In this document: positions 21,639 through 22,760 of the stretch, in pieces
How the letters are laid out: every line of letters starts with the position of its first letter
Position numbering within the stretch: the stretch's first letter is position 1
Translations under genes and position numbers: made by a program
The notes under the pieces: model-generated
The model's input: the letters and a program-made list of their open reading frames with translations, nothing else
What the model was told of the DNA's origin: nothing
The model's database searches: none
NCBI GenBank assembly: GCA_019309045.1
Contig: JAFDGZ010000026.1
Span: 1 to 35,149, forward strand
Length of the DNA stretch: 35,149 nt
DNA from: Deltaproteobacteria bacterium
Lineage (GTDB): Bacteria > Desulfobacterota > Syntrophobacteria > BM002
Direction: 5' to 3'

Positions 21639-21839
21639 TCAAGGGTAGAAGTGGTTGTCTGAGTAGTAGGCGGCCAGCTGACTTCTGGCAGTAGCCATGT
21701 CTGTCAAAGCGGCGGCATTGAAACTGCGCTGCTTGTAGCCCTGATAACGCAGCATGCCAACTACAGTCAGAATGGCAAGGATGCCAATTACGATCATCAA
21801 CTCTACCAGGGTAAACCCTCTCTTGTCTGCTATTTGCAT
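21639..21839 (-). CDS. Short type IV pilin, Geobacter PilA-N type (e-pilin-like)
   Basis: A 66-residue prepilin with a basic 8-residue leader (MQIADKRG), the prepilin peptidase site G/FTLVEL and glutamate at mature position 5. One hydrophobic helix follows, and the protein ends after 58 mature residues. It aligns without gaps to Geobacter sulfurreducens PilA. Aromatics fall at mature positions 1, 24, 27, 32, 51 and 57, the same six as in that pilin, with extra ones at 50 and 56. Proline 22 is replaced by leucine. There is no globular head domain. The frame opens upstream to 21977, but that part overlaps a promoter-like region. No ribosome-binding site is visible and no other pilus gene is near. 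It is either a complete short pilin or the truncated end of a longer one. Confidence 0.8.
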   Translation of the reverse strand: MQIADKRGFTLVELMIVIGILAILTVVGMLRYQGYKQRSFNAAALTDMATARSQLAAYYSDNHFYP

Positions 21840-21872
21840 GGCAACGCACCATCTGTCGTACACACAAGGCTG

Positions 21873-21916
21873 GCCACATAAATGTGGCGGCACTGGCAGT
21901 GATAAATCAGTGCCAG
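21873..21916 (-). other. Tandem hairpins in the pilin leader
   Basis: Two adjacent hairpins lie between the sigma-54-like element and the pilin ATG. One has arms CTGGCACTGA/TCACTGCCAG (21893-21916, one mismatch, four-base loop). The other has arms GCCACAT/ATGTGGC (21873-21888, two-base spacer). They would form the start of the predicted transcript and could control its stability or translation, since no ribosome-binding site is seen before the ATG. Confidence 0.55.
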
Positions 21917-21927
21917 CTGTACCTCCT

Positions 21928-21942
21928 GCAGGAATGGTGCCA
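21928..21942 (-). promoter_or_regulatory. Sigma-54 (-24/-12) promoter element before the pilin
   Basis: On the minus strand TGGCACC-ATTC-CTGC matches the RpoN consensus TGGCACG-N4-TTGC at all but two positions, with the essential GG and GC doublets correctly spaced. Transcription would start near 21916, about 75 bases before the pilin ATG. Pilin genes of Geobacter and Pseudomonas are RpoN/PilR dependent, which fits. Confidence 0.6.
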
Positions 21943-22025
21943 GTGGTTACAGTGGTGCGCAATTTGCCGTAAGGCAACAGCCTTTGGAAGCTCGGGTGTC
22001 TACCAGTCGGCGAAACACCATTGGC
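21935..22025 (-). other. tRNA-Leu-like relic or chance resemblance
   Basis: On the minus strand this 91-base segment begins GCCAATG and ends CACTGGC-A-CCA, which pair at six of seven positions. It also contains the D-loop-like CTGGTAGACAC and a long variable-arm-like hairpin TTGCC-TTAC-GGCAA, as in tRNA-Leu. The anticodon stem is mispaired and the T-loop lacks TTCRA, so it cannot be a working tRNA. Its 3' end overlaps the sigma-54 element. It may be a decayed tRNA or simply the activator-binding region of the pilin promoter. Confidence 0.3.
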
Positions 22026-22187: not shown

Positions 22188-22628
22188 TTATCTCTCCACC
22201 TCTGCCGCCTGCCAGCTGCCAAAGTCGTCTTGGAAAAAATGATACACTCGCACGGCGCTGTATTCTTTGTCCTTGCCGATGACGTATCGCTGCTCCTGAA
22301 AATCATAATCCAGTCGTCGATACAGCAGAGCTACTTTTACTGGCCAGTATCTTTCCTGGCTGTTGTAGTCTCCGATTTCCATTATTCTCACTTCGGTGAG
22401 ATTTCCCTGGGGAAAGAACTTGCGGGCGATCAGACGCTTGATTACCTCATTTGCAGGCTTCGCCTGCAAAGCCAGTCTGTGGCAAATATTCTGTATTTGC
22501 GCATCACTGAGCCCCTCAGCCTTCATTGCCTGCATCATATTCTCTGAACAGGTTTCGGCAAAACTCTGCTGAAAGTGCCCGCTCAAACAAAAAATCACAG
22601 TCATCAAAATCAAAAGATAGACTCTCAT
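22188..22628 (-). CDS. Exported protein of unknown function
   Basis: A 146-residue protein with a signal peptide (MRVYLLILMTVIFCLSGHFQQSFA, shown here only by its ends: basic MR, hydrophobic core, cleavage after SFA at about residue 24). The mature part begins ETCSEN and has two cysteines, at about positions 27 and 49, which could form a disulfide in the periplasm. A charged helix (AKPANEVIKRLIARK) is followed by a strand-rich region (VKVALLYRRLDYDF, YSAVRVYHFF). I do not recognise a family. The frame opens earlier, at 22676, but the ATG at 22628 has AAGGA seven bases upstream and starts the signal peptide correctly. It follows cysS by 132 bases and may share its transcript. Confidence 0.65.
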   Translation of the reverse strand: MRVYLLILMTVIFCLSGHFQQSFAETCSENMMQAMKAEGLSDAQIQNICHRLALQAKPANEVIKRLIARKFFPQGNLTEVRIMEIGDYNSQERYWPVKVALLYRRLDYDFQEQRYVIGKDKEYSAVRVYHFFQDDFGSWQAAEVER

Positions 22629-22760
22629 CAGCAAATCCTTCCACATCTCGAGAACGACCACTCCTGTGAACTCCAAGGCTCTGTCGTTTATCGCCTGCTA
22701 GTCGAACGCAACCTCCCCAGCAGGCATTCCAGATCAATATCTTCATCAACCATCAGCCGT

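Follow-up and report, generated by a model that had tools for sequence, protein, structure and literature searches.

The window, that is the whole 35,149-nt stretch analysed here, is contig C26 of a 3.9-Mb assembly (211 contigs, 97% complete). On its minus strand, an open reading frame running from 21839 to 21639 and closed by TGA encodes a 66-residue prepilin, MQIADKRG/FTLVELMIVIGILAILTVVGMLRYQGYKQRSFNAAALTDMATARSQLAAYYSDNHFYP. The locus comprises the following features:

21639–21839, minus strand: divergent short type IV pilin gene, encoding the 66-residue prepilin plus TGA (open reading frame, Pfam N_methyl, PDB geopilin matches)
21816–21839, minus strand: 8-residue leader MQIADKRG, with a predicted class III (PilD-type) cleavage site, G/FTLVE (sequence, Pfam N_methyl)
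21642–21815, minus strand: mature pilin of 58 residues, with Glu5 kept and Gly14, Pro22 and Glu48 lost (alignments, residue counts)
21927–21942, minus strand: putative sigma-54-like promoter element TGGCACCATTCCTGCA (GG-N10-GC), 103 nt before the ATG (motif scoring)
22188–22676, minus strand: upstream gene for a small protein of no family, with a signal-peptide-like N-terminus; not a pilin head domain (open reading frame, family search)

The predicted product has the hallmarks of the type IV pilin superfamily, namely a class III leader, a G/F cleavage position, Glu5 and a hydrophobic helix, and it matches Pfam N_methyl with E = 2.6e-8 (33.5 bits against a cut-off of 21.2). It also has the size of a short PilA-N pilin (about 58–61 residues, headless, with a stop just past a YP motif), and the mature protein is expected to be one long helix with no head domain. 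The helix-breaking residues Gly14 and Pro22 of short PilA-N proteins are replaced by Ala and Leu, and the conserved Glu48 is gone as well; Pro22 is present in every standard short pilin that we gathered. Aromatic residues occupy positions 1, 24, 27, 32, 50, 51, 56 and 57. A sequence-only reading of the locus had described just such a 58-residue headless pilin, with the six aromatics of Geobacter sulfurreducens PilA plus two more at 50 and 56 and with Leu at position 22. That description is correct in every detail, although the loss of Gly14 and Glu48 had gone unnoted. The same reading called the gene an orphan, and the neighbours that could be identified are indeed glnS, uvrB, uvrC, cysS and ispD, with no pilus assembly gene seen in the neighbourhood.

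The gap-free alignment to the Geobacter short pilin, also proposed earlier, is borne out by PDB chains of ‘Geopilin domain 1’, which match across the whole mature protein (9egp_A, 6e-16; 7tgg_A, 8e-11; 2m7g_A, 9e-9). Identity is 24/58 residues to 9egp and 19/58 to 2m7g, and the best match, 9egp_A, has an identical set of aromatics. Unlike these geopilins, the window pilin lacks Pro22 and Gly14, and whereas the solved filaments hold a PilA-C partner, none accompanies the window gene.

A pilin leader is present in nine genes of the genome. One of them opens contig C28 and is a standard short pilA, followed directly by a gene for a 140-residue partner; a profile built from the partner and its counterparts matches PilA-C chains (9egp_B, 1e-12; 7tgg, 4e-10; 6vk9_D, 2e-5). 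The C28 pilin resembles the window pilin in being a short prepilin ending in YP, with the same eight aromatic positions, Glu5 and a PilD-type site, and 30 of 58 residues are identical. In contrast to the window copy, it keeps Gly14, Pro22, Glu48, a strong ribosome site and the downstream partner. The genome further encodes PilB on C4 (811 bits against a curated cut-off of 676), with PilC and a PilS-like kinase alongside, two PilT-family ATPases on C29, PilM, PilN, PilO and a PilQ-type secretin on C13, a prepilin peptidase (PilD) on C55, and RpoN. Homologues of PilB, C, M, N, O, Q, D and T are thus all present, and a split PilA-N/PilA-C pilus is possible in principle without the window gene, which is therefore best regarded as an extra, diverged short pilin. 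A genome-wide profile search for a second PilA-C partner, adjacent to the window gene or elsewhere, returned only the C28 gene and one chance match to a signal peptide. The upstream frame at 22188–22676 was considered as a partner and rejected, as neither a family nor PilA-C likeness was found.

The sequence-only reading had asked for a genome check of pilB, pilC, pilD and a PilA-C partner, and had named the absence of any type IV pilus machinery as grounds for abandoning it. All of these genes are present, the partner being that of C28. The idea that the window gene provides the organism’s own short pilus is weakened, since the genome has a standard copy next to a PilA-C-like partner gene; the idea of a separate partner encoded elsewhere finds no support for the window gene, since the only one found belongs to the C28 copy. 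What stands of that interpretation is the short PilA-N type, the absence of a recent truncation and the existence of the machinery; what falls is the role of sole or standard short pilin. The gene itself is real, intact and only a mildly unusual diverged paralogue of short PilA-N.

Residues M40, T42 and A43 are common to the window pilin and the C28 copy. Recent gene conversion from C28 was rejected because third codon positions differ throughout. Residues 1–32 are nearer to a C1 pilin (18/32) than to C28 (13/32), and the helix of the full-length pilin at G000:C1:48250–48321 (G11, A14, G20 and M21, no Pro22) is closer to the window pilin than that of standard PilA. Third positions give no support to a chimaera of the C1 helix and the C28 C-terminal half, so that common descent or convergence is equally likely.

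We compared the gene with relatives in a set of 13 genomes (order/family of the organism). Six other genomes of the set have a standard short pilA, and one of these, G011 (CP070692.1, bin617), which belongs to another genus, also carries a diverged copy (C1:3113241–3113429; 56% identical to the window gene), so 2 of the 13 carry a diverged short pilin. The G011 copy shares 32/58 residues with the window pilin and likewise has a stop at YP(W), a sigma-54-like site upstream and no partner gene seen in its neighbourhood. It differs in having Leu1 for Phe1, in keeping Gly14 and in having ATA instead of ATG. Its surroundings also differ, with phage terminase-like genes on one side and a PilZ gene on the other, and the two carriers do not share a gene order. 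In the wider G011 locus (L048:8713–16000), genes resembling those for phage terminase and primase lie on the side of the pilin away from PilZ, which, as read from the sequence, puts it at the edge of a probable prophage. A phage origin of the gene was rejected after a scan of viral contigs, which gave only weak matches of at most 57% identity, mostly to part of the protein. In a scan of GTDB contigs for close orthologues, CP070692.1 alone exceeded 50% across the full length, and a search of 395 genomes of the phylum recovered standard-type pilins only. In one other member of the phylum (G176:C117, L155:6112–6993), one PilA-C-like gene sits between two short pilA genes (pilA, partner, pilA), the short pilin being duplicated in tandem on either side of it.

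Could the gene be a full-length pilin truncated by a recent stop mutation? Full-length pilins are the presumed source of the short-pilin class (PMC5174107). However, the stops of the G011 copy and of the standard short pilins fall at the same YP motif or about three residues from it at most, which argues that the window gene is not a recent truncation. No remnant of a head domain was found past the stop, where the partner profile matches nothing and the frame, by reading, shows no recognisable pilin-like sequence. The earlier reading would have yielded to orthologues running on into a head domain, and the nearest relative is also short; we give truncation next to no chance.

The two diverged copies have V18, G20, L22, Q25, Q46 and A48 in common, none of which is found in 17 other pilins, and they group in the tree at 85/89 support. 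This grouping, below the threshold for strong support, is suggestive but not firm, and alternative trees pairing each diverged copy with the standard copy of its own genome were not rejected (AU p 0.22–0.26). Synonymous divergence between the window gene and C28 (dS = 1.2) is close to that between the standard copies of the two genera (1.1), which would place the duplication at about the age of the genera or earlier, although both values are near saturation.

Selection was assessed by comparing the window gene with the G011 copy. Changes affect 36 of 116 sites at codon positions 1 and 2 and 36 of 58 at position 3 (Fisher p = 1.5e-4). When the same 72 changes were placed randomly, 17.6 residues were expected to be kept (maximum 28 in 5,000 trials) against the 32 observed, and 85% of trials gained a stop. 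The codon-position bias and the random-placement result together show that for much of its history the gene has been maintained as a protein. With 34 changes out of 116 at positions 1 and 2, against 9 between standard copies, the diverged copies change about four times as much there (p = 3e-5), so their constraint is relaxed. On these comparisons the window gene shows protein-level constraint, weaker than that on standard copies.

The main rival account sees the gene as a decaying duplicate, in which a long-standing additional copy of pilA, once constrained, would now be losing function and be weakly or not translated. Its faster change would fit this, as would the loss of Gly14, Pro22 and Glu48, the missing partner, the presence of a diverged copy in only 2 of 13 genomes and the lack of conserved neighbours around either copy. 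Translation signals point the same way. The Shine-Dalgarno sequence of the window gene is weak (GGTG only), and in the G011 copy the ATG of standard copies is replaced by ATA. Against decay, the frame is intact, and the leader, cleavage site, Glu5 and exact stop have been kept though synonymous sites are near saturation; the codon-position bias is significant, and a sigma-54-like site is retained upstream of both copies. We regard decay as a possible but less probable account of the gene. An AGGAGG lies far upstream of the window ATG, out of its reach, and the 5’ region (21840–21945, minus strand) is able to fold into a long structure rich in hairpins (-40.4 kcal/mol, z -1.7).

The sigma-54-like site of the window gene, at -103, has one mismatch to the sigma-54 element, and its counterpart in G011, TGGCAGGAAAAATGCA, lies at -100; with site weights that are our approximation of the published consensus, 0.8% of random 350-nt stretches score as high as either. 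In standard pilA genes of the family a clear sigma-54 element, TGGCA(A/G)G-N4-TTGCA, stands 128–158 nt before the start. Between this site and the pilA start, several loci (L012, L013, L014, L016 and L024) share a conserved GAGG(A/G)GGTGA-like leader motif, which might be another ribosome site or part of a leader peptide.

A regulatory role can also be imagined, in which the protein enters filaments poorly, stays in the inner membrane and signals to PilS, tuning sigma-54-dependent pilA expression. In P. aeruginosa, PilS directly interacts with PilA for autoregulation (PMC6058289). The genome has a PilS-like kinase beside PilC as well as RpoN, and a pilin that keeps its membrane helix but not the helix-melting residues would be a fitting candidate for retention there. 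The argument is purely one of analogy, though, and we think such a regulator very improbable.

The sequence-only reading had also linked the aromatic pattern to extracellular electron transfer. Among the pilins gathered here, all six aromatics occur in 15 of 18 short pilins versus 2 of 241 longer ones, so the set marks the short-pilin family. The ‘extra’ aromatics at 50 and 56 are found in the C28 pilin and in 9egp_A too, and a cryo-EM paper reports that five of the six positions are aromatic also in Neisseria meningitidis PilE (PMC5059446). The window pilin’s match to the pattern far exceeds chance, yet the pattern is not distinctive. Because the gene is an old altered copy of a standard pilin, we read the pattern as inherited family likeness and not as a sign of a new conductive wire; on the sequence comparisons it is by itself no argument for electron transfer, and the earlier proposal has no support beyond this resemblance.

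In its strongest form that proposal would make the gene a second conductive e-pilin, with a separate, aromatic-rich pilus for extracellular electron transfer. The strict criteria of Bray et al., as quoted in PMC7399161, are at least 9.8% aromatics (F, W, Y, H), no gap above 22, and aromatics at 1, 24, 27, 50/51 and 32/57. By these quoted values the window pilin qualifies (15.5%, largest gap 22, all positions), but so does the standard C28 pilin, and the relative’s diverged copy, with Leu1, falls outside. The genome is enriched in CXXCH codon patterns (591 versus 168 for the reversed control), and the one cluster that was read, on C2, encodes cytochrome c7- and cytochrome_cB-family proteins beside an iron-sulfur-type protein. 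Against this, the CXXCH scan and the reading of the C2 cluster identified no outer-surface OmcS-type cytochrome, and the loss of Gly14 and Pro22 makes a role as major subunit doubtful. Conduction by PilA filaments is itself disputed, cryo-EM work holding that they contain PilA-C and conduct poorly (PMC12954529 against PMC9207759). A second conductive pilus is thus very unlikely. An accessory pilin or a decaying duplicate explains the missing partner, relaxed constraint and weak start better.

We favour, at about an even chance, a minor or accessory pilin that uses the ordinary type IV pilus machine. The product of this old PilA-N paralogue, expressed from the sigma-54-like site, would be a prepilin that PilD processes. 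With its helix anchored in the inner membrane, it would be recruited via Glu5 by the PilB/C/M/N/O/Q machine. Most likely it would serve in the standard PilA-N/PilA-C pilus as a subunit that is minor or made only under some conditions and that has no head partner to itself. Two related pilins share one pilus in S. sanguinis (PMC10628169). Pro22 and Gly14 are believed to allow melting of the helix when a pilin enters the filament (PMC5059446). Among the leader-bearing genes of the genome Pro22 occurs only in the C28 pilin; the others, mostly minor-pilin-like, lack it, as expected of minor pilins, which counts for an accessory role. The points that weigh against that role are the weak Shine-Dalgarno sequence, the ATA of the G011 copy, the relaxed constraint, the unconserved gene order, and the grouping short of strong support together with the residues shared with C28. 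There is an outside chance that the two copies would represent a lineage-specific second class of headless pilins, which has lost the helix-melting residues, is under pilA-like sigma-54 control and provides headless spots in the split filament or a membrane signal to PilS.

The case warns against taking the aromatic pattern as evidence of a nanowire, as here the pattern is inherited and the gene is a spare, altered copy. If expressed, the window pilin would offer a natural experiment on whether entry into a type IV pilus is still possible for a pilin that lacks Gly14, Pro22 and a head partner.
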